A stretch of DNA of 49,457 nt, taken from contig NZ_AYXG01000005.1 in NCBI RefSeq assembly GCF_000564855.1, positions 1 through 49,457 on the forward strand, in the 5' to 3' direction. Source of the stretch: Actinokineospora spheciospongiae (GTDB taxonomy: Bacteria; Actinomycetota; Actinomycetes; Mycobacteriales; Pseudonocardiaceae). This document shows, in pieces, positions 1 through 7,082 of the stretch. Below the pieces are notes generated by a model. It was not told where the DNA came from. It was given only the letters and a program-made list of their open reading frames with translations, and did not search any database. Position numbers and translations under genes: made by a program. Position 1 is the stretch's first letter. Every line of letters starts with the position of its first letter.

Positions 1-78
1 CATCCGGTTGAACACCTGTCCAGCGTCCTGGAGCTTGTCGGCGATTCGACAGCGAGTAGGGCGGCCACGTCGGATTAG
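1..78 (+). CDS. possible 3' end of an unidentified CDS of the integrated element
   Basis: Frame 1 is open from the left edge to a TAG at 76-78 and reads as a plausible acidic/neutral C-terminus (HPVEHLSSVLELVGD...). It is too short to name. It lies inside the integrated element that ends near 1890. The call rests only on residue composition and on a Shine-Dalgarno-like AAGGGAGA starting just after it. Confidence 0.3.
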   Translation, partial: HPVEHLSSVLELVGDSTASRAATSD

Positions 79-93
79 TTCAAGGGAGACGGC

Positions 94-276
94 GTGAACT
101 GGCCGCGGACAGCCGCAAGTGATTTACCTGCCTGCTCACCGCGGCGCCGGAGGAGGCGTGAGCCCAGCGCGACCCCCCGACGACGGCAGCGCCCGCACGC
201 CGGTCGCCCGCGTCTACGCACGTCTCAACGACTCTTCGCGGCCGTGATCGCCGCCCCGCTTGGTGGGGAGGAGTAG
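94..276 (+). CDS. possible small basic protein of the integrated element
   Basis: A GTG-started reading frame of 60 codons follows an AAGGGAGA ribosome-binding-like sequence with 4 nt spacing. The predicted product is very Arg-rich (runs RRRRRR and RRR near residues 18-31) and has no domain I recognise. Small basic ORFs beside a serine integrase are often excisionases (recombination directionality factors), but there is no sequence evidence for that here. The GC-rich DNA could also give such a frame by chance. Confidence 0.22.
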   Translation: MNWPRTAASDLPACSPRRRRRREPSATPRRRQRPHAGRPRLRTSQRLFAAVIAAPLGGEE

Positions 277-292
277 ATCAGGACAAAGAAGA

Positions 293-319
293 GCCCCGCC
301 CGTGCGAGACGGGCGGGGC
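293..319 (-). terminator. hairpin terminator behind the integrase gene
   Basis: A perfect 11-bp stem (GCCCCGCCCGT / ACGGGCGGGGC) with a 5-nt loop lies 19 nt beyond the integrase stop codon. Read on the minus strand it is followed by a T-rich stretch (TCTTCTTTGTCC), which fits an intrinsic terminator for the integrase. Confidence 0.7.
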
Positions 320-337
320 GGGGTGTGTTCGAGCTGA

Positions 338-1867
338 TCAGGAGGCCCAGAAGTACACGCCGGAGGTGGTCAGGTCAACGACGTCCTGGACTGGGGCGGG
401 GTGGCTGATAATTTCGAGCCTGGCGGGGTCGATTCCGTGCCGCCCCCGGACACCCTTCTTGACCGTCACCGCGGAGATCACTCCGCGCAGCAGTGCGGCC
501 TTCCCGTCGTCGTCCGCCCGTTGCCACTCCTCGGCGAAGGTCGTCCCGGTGTTCCTCTGCATGGCACCTCGGGCAGCGGGACGCCTGTGAATCTCCCGGA
601 GTCTCGCTCGCAGCGCTCGCCGCTGAGTCAGGAGGATTGCCTCCTGGTCGTCGTCCGCATCACGGAATCGGGCCACGACAGCGTCGAGAGCGGCCTCCAG
701 TTCGAGCGCCTCGTCATCCTCTTGGTCATCCACGATGATCTCGACCCCTTGGACGTCGCCGACGGCTGAGAGCACGCGCTCTACCAGGTACTCCTCAAGT
801 CTGGCGCGGGAGATCACGACCCCCGGGCACTTCTGGCCGTCCGCGAGTCGGGGCCTCCGTGTGCAAGACCAGACGGGCGGTTTGCCCGGTTGGCTGACCG
901 CGTGGAGGGTCGAAGTGCAGTAGGCGCACGAGACCAGCCCCCGGAGAAGCATGTAGGGCGCGTCCACGGTCTTGGTAGACGGTAGCGAGCGCTTGTCAAG
1001 GGCGCTCTGGAGCCGCGCCCACTCGCTGGGCGACGTCACCACCGCGTCGTGCGGTTGGGTGGGGAGCCCGTCCTTTCCCCGCACGACCTCGCCTCTGTGC
1101 ACCTGCCACCCTCGGAGGATGGGACGACGGAGAAGACGTCGAAGAGCGATGTCGGTCCAGCCTCGGCGGTCAGTCTCGGAGGGTGCCGACCGACGACGCC
1201 CGCCCTTGCCTCCGGGTGCTGGGAGACCGCGCTCGTTGAAGTCGTCCACGATGGCGGAGATCGGCTCGCCCGCGCAGACGCGATCCACGGCCTCCCGGAC
1301 CACGGGTACCCGCTCGGGATCGAGTTCCAGGCGGTAGCCGGGTCCGTCCGGCCGGGGGGCAGCCCGCCAGCCGAAGGCGGCGAGCCCCCCGCGGTGGCGT
1401 CCCTCACGAACCATGTAGGCGACCGCCTCGGTCGTCCGGGCGGAGATCATGGCGGCTTCCATCGCGGCGAACGCTTGAAGAATGGTCGCCACAAATCGGC
1501 CACTCGGAGTGGACAGGTCGAGATTCTCAGCGACCGACACCAGCGCCACGCCGTTCCGGTCAGCCTCCTCGCGGAGGGCCTCCCAGTCGGCGACGTTGCG
1601 CGCGATGCGGTCGAGCTTGGCGAAGATCAAGACGTCCGTCAAACTCCACTGGTCGCGGACTTCACGGAGGCCGGGTCGGCCGAGACGGAGCCCCTTGTCT
1701 GAGCCGGACACGTCGAGGTCGGAGACCACCCCCGTGACCTGCCATCCGTGCGCCGCGGCGTAGGCCCGGCACACCTCCTCTTGACGCGCGGGTGATGTGG
1801 TCGTGTCGGTATCTCCGACGTAGGACGAGAGTCGGACGTAGATTAGAGCGCGGCGCGGGGCTGTCAT
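338..1867 (-). CDS. large serine recombinase (site-specific integrase)
   Basis: This 509-residue protein is a large serine integrase. The N-terminal resolvase/invertase catalytic domain has Y-x-R-x-S with the nucleophile at Ser14, then KLDRIARN. A recombinase domain follows, then a zinc-ribbon (CAYC near LLRGLVSCAYC, with later Cys residues) and a coiled C-terminal part, the usual order and size. The ATG at 1867 is chosen because catalytic-domain homology begins there; the frame is open further upstream only because it runs antisense over a host gene fragment. The ATG overlaps the TGA of the truncated oxidoreductase frame (ATGA) and has no Shine-Dalgarno of its own, so translational coupling to the host gene's 5' part is likely. 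It should join attP to a chromosomal attB and, with a directionality factor, excise the element. Confidence 0.93.
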   Translation of the reverse strand: MTAPRRALIYVRLSSYVGDTDTTTSPARQEEVCRAYAAAHGWQVTGVVSDLDVSGSDKGLRLGRPGLREVRDQWSLTDVLIFAKLDRIARNVADWEALREEADRNGVALVSVAENLDLSTPSGRFVATILQAFAAMEAAMISARTTEAVAYMVREGRHRGGLAAFGWRAAPRPDGPGYRLELDPERVPVVREAVDRVCAGEPISAIVDDFNERGLPAPGGKGGRRRSAPSETDRRGWTDIALRRLLRRPILRGWQVHRGEVVRGKDGLPTQPHDAVVTSPSEWARLQSALDKRSLPSTKTVDAPYMLLRGLVSCAYCTSTLHAVSQPGKPPVWSCTRRPRLADGQKCPGVVISRARLEEYLVERVLSAVGDVQGVEIIVDDQEDDEALELEAALDAVVARFRDADDDQEAILLTQRRALRARLREIHRRPAARGAMQRNTGTTFAEEWQRADDDGKAALLRGVISAVTVKKGVRGRHGIDPARLEIISHPAPVQDVVDLTTSGVYFWAS

Positions 1868-2025
1868 ATAGGCAAAATAACATTTCGGTTGTGCGTGTCC
1901 GCGTAGTTGATGCCCGCGCGCGAGACCTCCACCAGCACCTGGCCCGCGCCCGCGGTGGGGTCGGGGAGGTCGGCGGGGACGAGCACCTCGGGTCCGCCGA
2001 ACTCGGTGATCTGGATGGCGCGCAC
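1864..2025 (-). pseudogene. quinone oxidoreductase, 5' fragment cut by integration
   Basis: From a GTG at 2025, preceded by an excellent AGGAGG Shine-Dalgarno with 5 nt spacing, the frame reads as the N-terminus of an NADPH:quinone reductase / zinc-type alcohol dehydrogenase superfamily protein (RAIQITEFGGPEVLVPADLP, then QVLVEVSRAGINYADTH). A full-length relative has about 320 residues. Here homology stops after about 45 residues and the frame ends at a TGA at 1866-1864, 53 codons in total. The remainder of the gene is expected beyond the other end of the element, left of this window. The fragment keeps the host promoter and start, and its last bases overlap the integrase ATG. Confidence 0.85.
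1870..1900. other. attachment-site junction (attL/attR) of the integrated element
   Basis: The host reading frame of a quinone oxidoreductase runs down the minus strand to codons for YADTH (about 1891-1905). It then changes to an AT-richer sequence (GAAATGTTATTTTGCC on the minus strand) that does not continue the family. The integrase begins immediately beyond. The crossover therefore lies in roughly 1870-1900. The exact core cannot be read without the other end of the element. Confidence 0.7.
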
Positions 2026-2702
2026 GGGTTCCTCCTCGGCTCGACGACTGCCAGGGAACCCTAACCCCGGGTCTCAGCCCTGGCCCGCCCACGGCCAGTC
2101 CGCCGGTCTGTCGTCCTGCCCACCGGCTCCGCCCAGCATGACCAACCCCCTCCGCCCGACCCGCCTGCGCATTCCGGGGCTCAGCCTAGGGCGCCGCACC
2201 CGCGTCGTGATTCCCTTGTGGAGCCCGCAACCGCAGGTGGTGCGGCGGACCCGCGTCAAGCTCACCCTGGGTGACAGGTGTCCCGGTCCGCCTGGGCGCC
2301 CGGTCCACTCGAACAGCCGTTGTGATCACGGCGGGTTGCGCCAACTGCCCCACAGTCCGCCTCGCCATCGGTGAGCGGCGGCGGAAAAGGTTGACCCGGT
2401 CGGGGGGAATGCGGATTCACCCTCACCCCGGGCCGAGTCACCGGAATTACCCGGGTGGGCCGCCGGTCCGTGGGGGATTCACGCACGTCAGCCCGCATTG
2501 GGCTGTTCGGGTGGGTGAGTGAGTTGATCACTCACGTTTGGTGATCGGGTCAGAACGAGAGCTTCTGCACGTTCACCCGTTACGCAGGGACTCTCCACAT
2601 CGACGTATCTGATGCCCACACCTTTGCTCTACTACCAATGAGCAGGTCGGTGTGAGTGCACATACCGACCGTGACCGACGACCTGTACCGGGGTGGCACT
2701 TC
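2026..2702. other. 677-bp intergenic region between divergent genes
   Basis: No convincing gene is present; the open frames here are short and have no recognisable product. The region must contain the promoter of the interrupted quinone oxidoreductase (leftward) and of the S8 protease (rightward). The only distinct structure I see is the pair of overlapping inverted repeats at 2516-2547. Confidence 0.6.
2516..2547. promoter_or_regulatory. overlapping inverted repeats upstream of the S8 protease gene
   Basis: GTGAGTGA (2516-2523) is repeated in inverse as TCACTCAC (2529-2536) with a 5-nt spacer. The overlapping GATCAC (2527-2532) is mirrored by GTGATC (2542-2547). Only one of the two hairpins can form at a time. 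The position, about 155-190 bp before the protease start, suits an operator, but no cognate regulator is encoded nearby. Confidence 0.4.
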
Positions 2703-4400
2703 ATGGCGAGCATGGACCCATACGGCGATCAGCACACCACAGACCTGGGCGGCGGGGAGGCCGACGGGGTCTGCGAGGTGGCCGGTCCCCCGCCAACCGT
2801 CCTCATGCGTCACCGGGCGAGGTTCCTCGACCCGTCCACCGCGCTGCCCGGCCGCGGCCACCGGCGGCCGGATTCCACGGCGTACCGCACCGACACCCTG
2901 CTGGTGCCGCTGCGCCTGGCCCGCGACGCCGCGCTGATCGCCCGGTTCAACGAGGCCATCGCCTCGCTGGGCGCCGAACTGGTGGTGCGCCTGCCGCGCA
3001 CGCCGCGGTGGGCCGCCGCGCTGGAGTCCTTCGACGACGGGTTCGCCGTGCCGGTGCTGGTGCGCTGCCTGGAGGACTCCGACGCCGACGAGAGCCCGGA
3101 CCCGTGGTGCGTGCTGGTGCGGCTGCGCCGCCGGTTCCCCGACGCCGACCTGGAGGGGATCGGCCTGGAGCACCTGGCGCTGGCGGCGTCGGTGCGGATG
3201 GAGGGCGCACCCTTCGGCAGCGGGGTCCCCTTCGGCAGCGGCGTGCCGTTCGGCAGCGGCGTCCCCTTCGGCAGTGGTGTTCCGTTCGGCAGTGGAGTCG
3301 GGGGTGGCGGCGTGGCGTTGGCGACCGGGAACCGCAATCCGGTCCGGGTGTTCCTGCCCGAACCGCGCCGGGTGGCCGACCCGGCCGATCTGGTCGCCGG
3401 GCGGCGGCCGGTGGTGGCGGTGCTCGACACCGGCATCGGCGAGCACCCGTGGCTGACCGTCGGCGACCCCTGCGACGACCCGGTGGTGCAGGTGTCCGTG
3501 GAGTTCCAGGGGCTGCTGGCCGACCTGGAGGCGACCATGGTCGACGCCAGCGGCGCGGTCATGCCGCCGCTGGTGTCCCCGAACGACCAGCGCGACGTGC
3601 TGCAACCGCTGCTGGGCGTCACCGACTCGCACTCCGGGCACGGCACGTTCGTCACCGGCCTGGTGTTCCAGAACTGCCCGGACGCGCGCATCCTGTCGCT
3701 GCGGGTGCTGCACACCGACGGCATCACCACCGACGCGTCGGTGCTGCTGGCGCTGGAGTGGCTGCGCGAGCGGGTCCGCAACGCCCTGGACAACGGGATC
3801 GCCGAGGACCTCGTCGACGTGGTGTCGGTGTCGCTGGGCTTCTACCCGGAGCACGCCGACCGGCAGACCGGGCTGCTGCTGGCCGAGGCGGTGCGCAAGC
3901 TGACCGACCTCGGGGTGGTCGTGGTCGCCGCCGCGGGCAACGACGCGACCACCCGCCCGTTCGTCCCGGCGGCGCTCGCGCTCAACCCGGACGGTTCCAA
4001 CACCGGCAACCCGCTGCTGGTGGCCGTCGGCGCGCTCAACGCCTCCGGCCGCACCGTCGCCGCGTTCTCCAACGAGGGCGACTGGGTCACCCGGTGGGCG
4101 CCGGGCAACGCCGTGGTCAGCACCGTGCCGCTGTGGCAGGGCCCGGAGGGCTCGGGCCTGGGCACCCCGGGCGACGGCACGCCGAACATGACCCGCACCT
4201 CCCCCGACCCCGACGACCTGACCACCGGGTTCGCCGTCTGGGCCGGGACCTCCTTCGCCACCCCGGTGGTGGCCGGGATGCTCGCGGCCAACCTGGCCGT
4301 CGCCAAGGACGCCACCACCGACCAGGACCGCTGCGTCCGGGCGGCCGACGCGCTCGCCGCCACCGACGAGCAGTTGCGGAAGCTGGGCTGGCTGTCCTGA
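2703..4400 (+). CDS. S8 family (subtilisin-like) serine protease, probably intracellular
   Basis: A subtilisin-fold peptidase with an intact triad: Asp in VAVLDTG (residue 242), His in DSHSGHGT (313), oxyanion Asn in AAAGN (413) and Ser in GTSFATP (517), numbered from ATG 2703. The roughly 165 residues before the peptidase domain match no domain I know and end in a flexible linker of five PFGSGV repeats (170-199) and a Gly run. I see no signal peptide, propeptide or membrane segment, so a cytoplasmic location is likely. ATG 2703 has GGGGTGG 6 nt upstream; a GTG at 2652 would add 17 residues. The next gene, 87 bp downstream, encodes a CHAT protease, so the two probably act together; one plausible idea is that CHAT cleaves the linker to activate this enzyme. 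A hairpin separates the two genes. Confidence 0.88.
   Translation: MASMDPYGDQHTTDLGGGEADGVCEVAGPPPTVLMRHRARFLDPSTALPGRGHRRPDSTAYRTDTLLVPLRLARDAALIARFNEAIASLGAELVVRLPRTPRWAAALESFDDGFAVPVLVRCLEDSDADESPDPWCVLVRLRRRFPDADLEGIGLEHLALAASVRMEGAPFGSGVPFGSGVPFGSGVPFGSGVPFGSGVGGGGVALATGNRNPVRVFLPEPRRVADPADLVAGRRPVVAVLDTGIGEHPWLTVGDPCDDPVVQVSVEFQGLLADLEATMVDASGAVMPPLVSPNDQRDVLQPLLGVTDSHSGHGTFVTGLVFQNCPDARILSLRVLHTDGITTDASVLLALEWLRERVRNALDNGIAEDLVDVVSVSLGFYPEHADRQTGLLLAEAVRKLTDLGVVVVAAAGNDATTRPFVPAALALNPDGSNTGNPLLVAVGALNASGRTVAAFSNEGDWVTRWAPGNAVVSTVPLWQGPEGSGLGTPGDGTPNMTRTSPDPDDLTTGFAVWAGTSFATPVVAGMLAANLAVAKDATTDQDRCVRAADALAATDEQLRKLGWLS
3210..3299 (+). repeat. five in-frame 18-bp repeats encoding PFGSGV
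   Basis: Five tandem copies of an 18-bp unit encode PFGSGV x5 between the N-terminal region and the catalytic domain of the S8 protease. Third-position differences between copies (GGC/GGT, CCC/CCG, GTC/GTG) suggest that the peptide, not only the DNA, is maintained. Confidence 0.85.
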
Positions 4401-4447: not shown

Positions 4448-4491
4448 TACTGTCTACTGCCATGGCCGGTCGTCCCAGGGCAGCGCGGTGA
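4448..4491 (+). promoter_or_regulatory. -10 box and leaderless mini-ORF coupled to the CHAT start
   Basis: TACTGT (4448-4453) fits the TANNNT -10 pattern and lies 8 nt before ATG 4462. That ATG opens a 9-codon frame (MAGRPRAAR) whose TGA (4489-4491) overlaps the GTG start of the CHAT gene as GTGA. If transcription starts at about 4460, the mini-ORF would be read as a leaderless mRNA and would deliver ribosomes to the CHAT start. Confidence 0.4.
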
Positions 4492-7082
4492 GCGCGGGGA
4501 ACGCGCGCACCCTGCGCCGGGCGGGCGCGCTGTGGCGGCGGGCCAGGGTGGCCGTCTACGCCTACGAGTTCGCCAGGGCCCGGTCGCTGTCGGAGCAGGC
4601 GCTCGACGCCCTGGACAACGCCCCGGAGCCCACCGACCAGGACCTGATCCCGATGCGGGTCCGGGTGCTGGTCACCGCCGCCTACGCCGACACCGAGGTC
4701 GGTGAGGTCGAGCGCGGCCTGGGCAGGCTGGACACCGCGGGCGGGCTCGTCGCGGCCATCGCCGACCCGGCCAGCCGCTCGGAGCTGGAGCTGCTGTCCC
4801 GGGAGCAGCGCGGTTTCCGGCTGATCCGGGTCGGCCGCACCGAGGAGGGGCTGCGCACCCTCGACGAGATCGCCGACAAGCTGGAGCGGGAGCTGGCGAC
4901 CGGGGTGGGGGAGCCCAGCGTGCTGGCGATCCTGCACCTCAACCGCAGCCTGGCCTACATCGGGCAGGCGCACACCGCCGCCGCGGTGGCCGAGGTCAAC
5001 CGGTGCATCGAGCTGACCGAACAGTACGAGATGGACCCGACCATCGCGATCAAGGCCAGGCACAACCTCGGCTACGTGGCCTACATGTCCGGGGACATGC
5101 CGACCGCGCTGCGGCTGTTCGAGGAGTCGGCTCGGACGTGCACCGAGCAGGCGCCGACGCTGCTGCCGGTCGTCCGGCTCGACCAGGCCCGCGCGCTGCT
5201 GGCCGCCGGGCTCGCCGAGGAGGCCGCGCGCAGCCTGGACGAGGCGCTGCCGGTGCTGCGCAAGCAGCGCGGCGGGCAGGACGCCGCCGAGGCCGAGGTG
5301 GCCCGGGCGGCGGCGGCGCTGCTCGACGGCGACGCCGCCTTCGCCCACCGCCGGGCCACGTCCGCGCACACCAGCTTCACCAAGCGCGGCAACCGGCGCT
5401 GGGCGGCGATCGCCCGGCTGGCCGCGGTGCGCGCGCAGGCGCAGTCCGCGCTCGACGACCGCGGGCGCACGGTGCGGCGCACCCTGGTCGACACCGCGGT
5501 CCGGCTGGCCGACGACCTGCGCGAGCTGATGCTGGAGGACGAGCGGGCGCTGGCGCTGCTGCTGGCCGCCCGGTTGCAGATCCGCCGCCGGGACCTGGGT
5601 TCCGCGCGCGAACTGCTCGACGCGGTGCCGCCGCCGCGGTCGACGACCCCGATCGACCACCGGATGCTGCTGCGGCTGTGCCGGGCGGAGCTGGCCATCG
5701 CCGCGGGCAGCCCGCGCCGCGCGTTCGCCCAGGCCCGGTCCGGGCTCACCGAGCTGGGCCGGGTGCGCGACAAGATGGGCGGGATGGAGCTGGTGTGCGG
5801 CACCGCCGTGCACGGGCAGGAGCTGGGCGAGCTGGCGGTGCGGCAGGTGCTGCGCAGGCCCCGCCCGGACGCGCGCGGCCTGTTCGGCTGGCTGGAGCGG
5901 ACCCGCGCGCAGGTCTACCGGTACGAGCCGCTGCCGGTGTCGCTGCCGCGGGAGGTGGCGGCGAAGGCGGCCGAGCTGCGCAACGTGCGCCGGGCGGTGC
6001 AGTCGGCCCGGGTGGCGGGGCAACCGGTGGCGCAGTTGGAGAAGCAGACCGCGGCGCTGGAGCGGGAGGTGTCGCGGCAGGGCTGGTCGGCCGGGGCGCT
6101 GGGCAGCCCGCGCCCGGTGGCGGCGCTGGGCGAGGTGGCCGAGGCGCTGGGGCAGCGGGCGCTGGTGTCGTTCGCCAAGCCCGACGGCGCGGTGGTGGCC
6201 GTGGTGGTGACCGCGAACAGCACCAGGATGGTGCGCCTGGGCGACTCGGCCACCGCCGCGGAGTGGGCCGCGCGGCTGCACGCCGACCTCGACGCGCTGG
6301 CCCCGGACACGCTGCCGCCGCCGGTGGTCGAGGTGGTGAAGGCGTCCGCGGCGCGCAGCGCGGGCGCGCTGGACGCGCAGCTCATCCGGCCGCTGCTCGA
6401 CGCGGTCGGCGACCGGGACCTGGTGGTCGTGCCGACCGGGCCGCTGTACGCGGTGCCGTGGGGGAGCCTGCCGTCGCTGCGCGGCCGGTCGGTGGTGGTC
6501 GCCCCGTCGGCGACCGCGTGGCTCTCCGCCGAGCGCGCCGACCCGCCCGGGGGCAGCACGCTGCTGGCCCGCGGCCCCGGCCTCACCGGGCTGGTGGCCG
6601 AGGAGGAGCACCTGCTGGCGGTCTACCCGGGCGCGGTCACCCTCGACGGCGGTCGGGCGACCGTGGCGGAGGTGCTGGCCGCGCTCGACGGCGCCGACCT
6701 GGCGCACCTGGCCGCGCACGGCGAGCACGAGCCGACGAACGCGCTGTTCTCCCGGCTGGAGCTGGCCGACGGCCCGCTGTTCGCCTACGAGGTGGCCCGG
6801 CTGCCGCAGCCGCCCCGGCAGGTGGTGCTGGCCGCCTGCGAGCTGGCGCTGAACTACGTGCGCCCCGGCGACGAGGCGCTGGGCTACGCGGGGGCGCTGC
6901 TGGCGGGCGGGGTGCGCACGGTGGTGGCGGCCACCAGCCGGGTCGGCGACGAGGCGGCGGCGACCGCCATGGCCGACTACCACCGCGGTCTGGCCGAGGG
7001 GGTCACCCCGGCCCGCGCGCTGGCCGCCTCGGTGGCCCGCGACCCCTACCGCAGGCCGTTCATCTGCCTCGGCGCGGGCTGA
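4488..7082 (+). CDS. TPR-containing CHAT-domain (caspase-like) protease
   Basis: An 864-residue protein with a long N-terminal helical array of TPR type (Ala/Leu/Arg-rich helix pairs from about residue 15 to 450) and a C-terminal CHAT domain from about 600. The catalytic dyad is visible: His744 in HLAAHGEH and Cys784 in VVLAACEL. CHAT proteins are clan CD cysteine peptidases related to caspases and separase, and the TPR part normally senses or binds a partner. No signal peptide or membrane helix is seen. GTG 4488 is supported by an AGGG about 8 nt upstream and by overlap with the preceding mini-ORF stop. The adjacent S8 protease is the obvious candidate partner or substrate. Trigger and targets are not evident from sequence. 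Confidence 0.88.
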   Translation: MSAGNARTLRRAGALWRRARVAVYAYEFARARSLSEQALDALDNAPEPTDQDLIPMRVRVLVTAAYADTEVGEVERGLGRLDTAGGLVAAIADPASRSELELLSREQRGFRLIRVGRTEEGLRTLDEIADKLERELATGVGEPSVLAILHLNRSLAYIGQAHTAAAVAEVNRCIELTEQYEMDPTIAIKARHNLGYVAYMSGDMPTALRLFEESARTCTEQAPTLLPVVRLDQARALLAAGLAEEAARSLDEALPVLRKQRGGQDAAEAEVARAAAALLDGDAAFAHRRATSAHTSFTKRGNRRWAAIARLAAVRAQAQSALDDRGRTVRRTLVDTAVRLADDLRELMLEDERALALLLAARLQIRRRDLGSARELLDAVPPPRSTTPIDHRMLLRLCRAELAIAAGSPRRAFAQARSGLTELGRVRDKMGGMELVCGTAVHGQELGELAVRQVLRRPRPDARGLFGWLERTRAQVYRYEPLPVSLPREVAAKAAELRNVRRAVQSARVAGQPVAQLEKQTAALEREVSRQGWSAGALGSPRPVAALGEVAEALGQRALVSFAKPDGAVVAVVVTANSTRMVRLGDSATAAEWAARLHADLDALAPDTLPPPVVEVVKASAARSAGALDAQLIRPLLDAVGDRDLVVVPTGPLYAVPWGSLPSLRGRSVVVAPSATAWLSAERADPPGGSTLLARGPGLTGLVAEEEHLLAVYPGAVTLDGGRATVAEVLAALDGADLAHLAAHGEHEPTNALFSRLELADGPLFAYEVARLPQPPRQVVLAACELALNYVRPGDEALGYAGALLAGGVRTVVAATSRVGDEAAATAMADYHRGLAEGVTPARALAASVARDPYRRPFICLGAG

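Follow-up and report, generated by a model that had tools for sequence, protein, structure and literature searches.

A predicted leaderless integrase promoter in the attL site of a prophage-like element inserted in an oxidoreductase gene of Actinokineospora spheciospongiae

Introduction

The skin element is a prophage-like insertion that splits the sigK gene and restores it on excision. In the KplE1 prophage, the promoter of the integrase gene overlaps attL and the integrase IntS is described as regulating its own expression negatively, an arrangement that the same source infers to be common for integrases associated with tRNA genes (Panis et al., 2010, PMC2951348). Vectors derived from phiC31 are described as carrying attP inside the int promoter region and as expressing int after integration (PMC11784100), and the attP site of phiJoe is given as ending 18 bp before int (PMC5311408). 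In searches of an open-access library, we found no description of leaderless serine integrases and nothing relevant on a quinone oxidoreductase gene as attB.

Here we analyzed a 49,457 nt stretch of Actinokineospora spheciospongiae DNA (NCBI RefSeq assembly GCF_000564855.1, contig NZ_AYXG01000005.1), hereafter referred to as the window. An earlier note on this DNA proposed that a serine-integrase element had entered a quinone-oxidoreductase gene and that the supply of integrase depends on expression of the host gene only while the element is integrated, which would constitute a possible integration-state switch. We conclude that the locus is the attL site of a prophage-like element inserted by its serine integrase and, judging from the sequence, consider it probable that the integrase gene has a leaderless promoter of its own.

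Results

The integrase gene and the truncated oxidoreductase gene, hereafter the stub, are both encoded on the minus strand, and their coordinates, the GTG start codon, the AGGAGG site and the overlap of the stub stop codon with the integrase start codon were confirmed as described in the earlier note (Table 1). The 53 aa product of the stub has no Pfam match, and its top NCBIfam match is the PIG3-family quinone oxidoreductase (E 5.6e-10, 38.7 bits), with a score far under the curated cut-off of the family because the stub is short. The orthologues of the stub gene at loci L006 and L007 are intact, and the intact orthologues in two congeners, G002 and G003, share 81–83% identity with the stub over its first 47 residues. 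Past codon 46 the stub no longer matches quinone oxidoreductases and the seven codons up to the stop are foreign, close to the entry after about codon 45 that had been suggested. The insertion has left the host GTG and its strong Shine-Dalgarno (SD) sequence in place.

The missing 3′ part of the oxidoreductase gene, expected at the other att end, was found outside the window, on contig C99 of this genome (G000), and is 87% identical to the G002 orthologue. As the second best match in this genome reaches only 45%, no second intact orthologue was seen. Two congeners were compared for an empty site, G002 (locus L051) and G003 (locus L052), and in both of them the window sequence from 1888 and the C99 sequence up to 42834 are adjacent with a 6-bp overlap. 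This overlap, CACAAC, is the core common to attL and attR and falls within the region of about 1870–1900 in which a short repeat had been anticipated. From the reconstruction of the att sites, the crossover dinucleotide is probably the AA at 1889–1890. The symmetry of the reconstructed attP around this AA is weak (9/20, shuffle p 0.05), and 9 of 187 centres were equal or better. When the flanks were rejoined in silico, they formed a single intact oxidoreductase reading frame. Since the flanks are contiguous in the congeners and the rejoined gene is intact, the locus in the window represents attL and C99 carries attR. A full-length oxidoreductase gene would be regained if the element excised exactly, as had been supposed.

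Table 1. Coordinates of the features at the integrase locus, at the other end of the element and in relatives; positions without a prefix refer to the window
Feature	Position	Strand	Remarks
Large serine integrase gene	338..1867	-	509 aa; stop codon 338-340 included
Integrase start codon ATG	1865-1867	-	ATGA at 1864-1867
5′ stub of quinone-oxidoreductase gene	1864..2025	-	46 host codons and 7 foreign codons, then TGA
Stub stop codon TGA	1864-1866	-	overlaps integrase ATG
Stub start codon GTG	2023-2025	-	
Shine-Dalgarno sequence AGGAGG of host gene	2031..2036	-	5 nt before GTG
Extended -10-like element TGTTATTTT	1874..1882	-	hexamer 1874-1879; in att arm
Core common to attL/attR, CACAAC	1888..1893	-	overlap of both flanks in L051 and L052
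Best -35-like hexamer of integrated form, CGGACA	1896..1901	-	4/6, spacer 16; in host DNA; weak
Element DNA, int-side end	1..1887	.	reaches contig end at 1 (G000:C5:1)
Element DNA, other end	G000:C99:42835-54259		11.4 kb, to contig end 54259
Missing 3′ part of oxidoreductase gene	G000:C99:42016-42828	-	
Two adjacent hairpins	L047:4829-4960	-	between first element gene and attR core
Oxidoreductase gene copies of the arrays	L048 2600-2750, 3230-3350, 5930-6101, 13040-13197, 18779-19750		
Oxidoreductase gene copies of the arrays	L049 4897-5025, 9050-9190, 13301-14272		
Oxidoreductase gene copy of the arrays	L050 13770-13925		

The part of C99 that belongs to the element is phage-like and encodes two regulators, the first of them XRE/ImmA-IrrE, as well as a primase-polymerase. 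The sole sign of structural genes is a small protein that weakly matches a head scaffold. Two adjacent stable hairpins of 14 and 6 pairs are located next to the attR core; on the int-sense strand their z score is −2.07, and 12 of 200 shuffled sequences fold equally well. These hairpins possibly serve as an insulator at the element edge and might, in the circle, keep transcription from reading through into int.

In the order-level relatives G095 and G086, the 5′ part of the oxidoreductase gene was also observed in several copies, which break off at the same codons (ADTH..) or close to them, and an intact copy stands at one end of the arrays. The arrays look like the product of repeated insertion at the same target by elements bringing their own 5′ end. 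The present integrase type was rejected as their cause, as it has no meaningful match there, and no recombinase of its kind was found at the arrays. On the plus strand of the window, a subtilase gene (2652–4397; Peptidase_S8; match to a PADLOC subtilase model at E 5.6e-12) that encodes consecutive PFGSGV repeats adjoins a gene for a CHAT-domain protein (4488–7079), and this stretch is kept in G002 and G003.

The integrase contains the Resolvase, Recombinase and Zn_ribbon_recom domains, all three above the Pfam cut-offs, and the locus is laid out as is usual for large serine integrases, attP adjoining int, the core being short (6 bp) and attB lying in a host gene. The frame offers two possible starts, ATG 1867 and a GTG located 225 nt further upstream; a longer ORF from the latter (GTG 2092) was rejected, as the homologues begin near ATG 1867. 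Neither an SD nor an SD-like string precedes this ATG, in agreement with the earlier note. In the int-side att arm, the hexamer TATTTT of an extended −10-like element ends 6 nt (1868–1873) before the start codon (TGT-TATTTT-GCCTAT-ATG, i.e. TGTTATTTT-GCCTAT-ATG), which is the spacing expected of a leaderless transcript. Both sequence features of a leaderless gene, a −10 hexamer 6–7 nt before the start and the absence of SD, are thus found here. In the earlier note, an integrase-proximal promoter within 1868–1900 was named as evidence against its proposal, and the −10-like element is predicted to be such a promoter.

The best −35-like hexamer in the circle is GCGACT (3/6, spacer 17). A scan for consensus sigma-70 promoters and for terminators gave nothing in window 1700–2400 or in L047 4700–5300. 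By eye, a GC-rich inverted repeat (CCCGCCCGT...ACGGGCGGG) is seen just 3′ of the integrase stop codon at about 295–318 of the window, and it is a possible terminator.

Integrase homologues were present in 26 of 297 genomes in the family search (E 1e-30 or better) and in 6 of 394 genomes in the class search (E 1e-50), the own genome being included in both counts, and share 29–43% identity with the query. No close relative was confirmed among 5 matched viral-contig stretches and 100 matched genome-contig stretches, so that conservation of the exact att arm was not comparable and distant homologues were used instead. From 141 loci in genomes and viral contigs (L055–L195, some fetched twice from the same place), 37 were excluded for want of a match at E 1e-20 reaching model position 7, leaving 104 usable N-termini, and a further 16 were excluded as near-duplicates (>85% alike) or for having <60 nt upstream, leaving 88 distinct loci. 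As the start we took the nearest ATG/GTG that lies 4 to 40 codons upstream of the codon for the conserved R in the RLS motif.

Of the 88 loci, 37 (26/51 genome loci and 11/37 viral contigs) have a TAnnnT whose first base is at −13 or −12, and the other 51 lack it there. Any other single offset between −60 and −6 has the motif in 0–2 loci. Internal ATG/GTG codons examined as a control have the motif at −13/−12 in 8 of 1449 cases (Fisher 3.8e-42 versus 37/88). An SD-like string is present in 26 of the 88 loci, and both SD and motif can occur in one locus. The same motif was found when the starts annotated by the depositors were used, in 12 of 19 phage integrases or 12 of 21 counting phiC31 and phiBT1; 18 of these phages were hand-picked for diversity among 975 and 506 matching records, and phiJoe was added. 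At other annotated CDS of the same phage records, it precedes 1 of 78 (Fisher 8.5e-10 versus 12/19; one of 79 whole CDS was removed for insufficient upstream sequence). The 37 motif loci have no conserved −35, as every column in the region 40 to 12 nt ahead of the hexamer stays at or below 0.24 bit. Taken by itself, a serine-integrase prophage residing in a coding gene is ordinary; less ordinary is that a −10-like element recurs directly ahead of the integrase start codon, in the att arm or next to it.

At L060, L061 and L075, related integrases lie behind a stub reading ALDAG(I/V)TTFD(T/S)A(E/D) just upstream of the start. We take this to be an aldo/keto reductase motif, and another conserved enzyme gene would then be the target of these integrases.

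The inferred crossover is located 22–23 nt before the integrase ATG. At L061, host homology with empty-site relatives stops about 24 nt before the int start, and the corresponding distances are about 35 nt at L177 (several relatives 9 nt earlier), 38–39 nt at L085 and 45 nt at L185, these match ends being accurate to a few nt at best. In the phiJoe record, the annotated core is 43–44 nt before int, and the best scripted pseudo-palindrome centre agrees. The −10 lies between the crossover and int in all six mapped cases and so stays with int when the element integrates. Two of the six (the present element and L061) exchange the usual −35 position, three (L085, L185 and phiJoe) keep it and one (L177) is borderline. 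Here the crossover separates the −10 from the usual −35 position, so that the upstream promoter half alone would be swapped by integration. The best −35 match scored above that of shuffled sequences in 12 phage attP cases (3.33 versus 2.79, sd 0.24) and 11 viral contigs (3.18 versus 2.68, sd 0.25) but not in 26 genome loci assumed to be integrated (2.81 versus 2.70, sd 0.16). As a comparison between the two states, this evidence is weak and mixed.

Discussion

The extended −10 in the int-side att arm would direct a transcript whose first base is at or next to the ATG, and with such a 5′ end the integrase would need no ribosome site. Because the crossover lies upstream of both the −10 and the start codon, int would keep its core promoter in both the integrated and the circular forms, and integration would replace only the upstream part, namely a −35 region that is weak and whatever transcription enters from outside. 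The integrase may limit its own supply, since on binding attL or attP it would cover the −10 of its gene. The overlap of the stub with int at ATGA is most likely an accident of frame and, should transcription from the host promoter extend into int, may add some coupled translation.

In the model of the earlier note, int in the lysogen would depend on the oxidoreductase promoter for its transcription and on coupling at ATGA alone for its translation, and in the circle it would follow a different sequence, so that the integration state would act as a switch. The strong host SD and the lack of any SD before int are in line with this model, the overlap of a stop codon with the start of a second gene devoid of SD is what translational coupling looks like locally, and a long host-started mRNA offers no other evident route to integrase translation. 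However, the stub stop meets the ATG in one of three frames, so that this detail alone is near chance. An ATGA overlap with an upstream same-strand ORF (at least 40 aa and ending between −30 and +60) is found in just 4 of the 37 motif loci (L055, which is the present locus, L059, L062 and L068) and 10 of the 88 overall, a frequency that we estimate to be near frame chance, and coupling is thus not conserved in related loci. In the rejoined circle, moreover, a phage-side ORF of 46 codons that starts with GTG and has no evident SD shares the frame of the stub and also ends at its TGA, so that coupling is no mark of the integrated state. Given also the −10-like element that precedes the int ATG in both states and recurs among related integrases, exclusive supply through the host gene is very improbable. 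What stands of the proposal is that host transcription could supply a second, coupled route in the lysogen and that the upstream promoter half is exchanged; the −10 is present in integrated and circular forms alike.

A weaker switch is conceivable because the −35 region and the upstream context are exchanged. The two routes might then operate together, a basal leaderless promoter in either state being joined in the lysogen by host-driven coupled translation. The position of the crossover in the present element and L061 and the −35 scores of the phage attP cases are consistent with this combination, but the scores of the genome loci do not exceed those of shuffled sequences, the present element scores higher in the integrated form than in the circle, and the −35 position is unexchanged or borderline in four of the six mapped cases. 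We therefore regard the combined model as rather unlikely. It is improbable that the whole layout is a dead remnant without present function, for the integrase, the regulator and the primase-polymerase all have intact ORFs and neither att half is disrupted; such decay is suggested by the identified contigs holding only the two ends of the element, with the single weak head-scaffold match for structural genes.

The leaderless promoter of int, which we prefer, could be extended to a general but tentative proposal that we would not yet count on. Many actinobacterial serine integrases may be leaderless, with a core promoter that doubles as the int-side att half and is covered at its −10 by the integrase itself, and in those with a crossover between −10 and −35, as here, recombination would also exchange the upstream half. 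A single att site would then serve for recombination, as operator and as promoter, forming a homeostat without a separate regulator. If this is true, the att half-site is under two selections, for integrase binding and for RNA polymerase, and engineered att variants may alter int expression unnoticed. It would also allow integrase start codons to be called more accurately and give a simple reason for int staying expressible after integration. The leaderless-integrase rule is testable in existing phage and lysogen RNA-seq.

Like the skin element, the present element splits a coding gene that exact excision would restore, although, unlike sigK, the oxidoreductase has to our knowledge no developmental role or programmed excision. 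As in phiC31, attP is close upstream of int, but phiC31 and phiBT1 have no TAnnnT at −13/−12, unlike the present integrase. The phiJoe integrase, with TAGGTT at −13, resembles the present one in the placement of the −10, while its core is about twice as far from int and its −35 position is not exchanged. A parallel in layout is KplE1, whose int promoter overlaps attL as is predicted here from the positions of the −10 and the core. KplE1 IntS is a tyrosine recombinase encoded at a tRNA gene, whereas the present integrase has serine recombinase domains, its element is inserted in a protein-coding gene, and its start is of the leaderless type.
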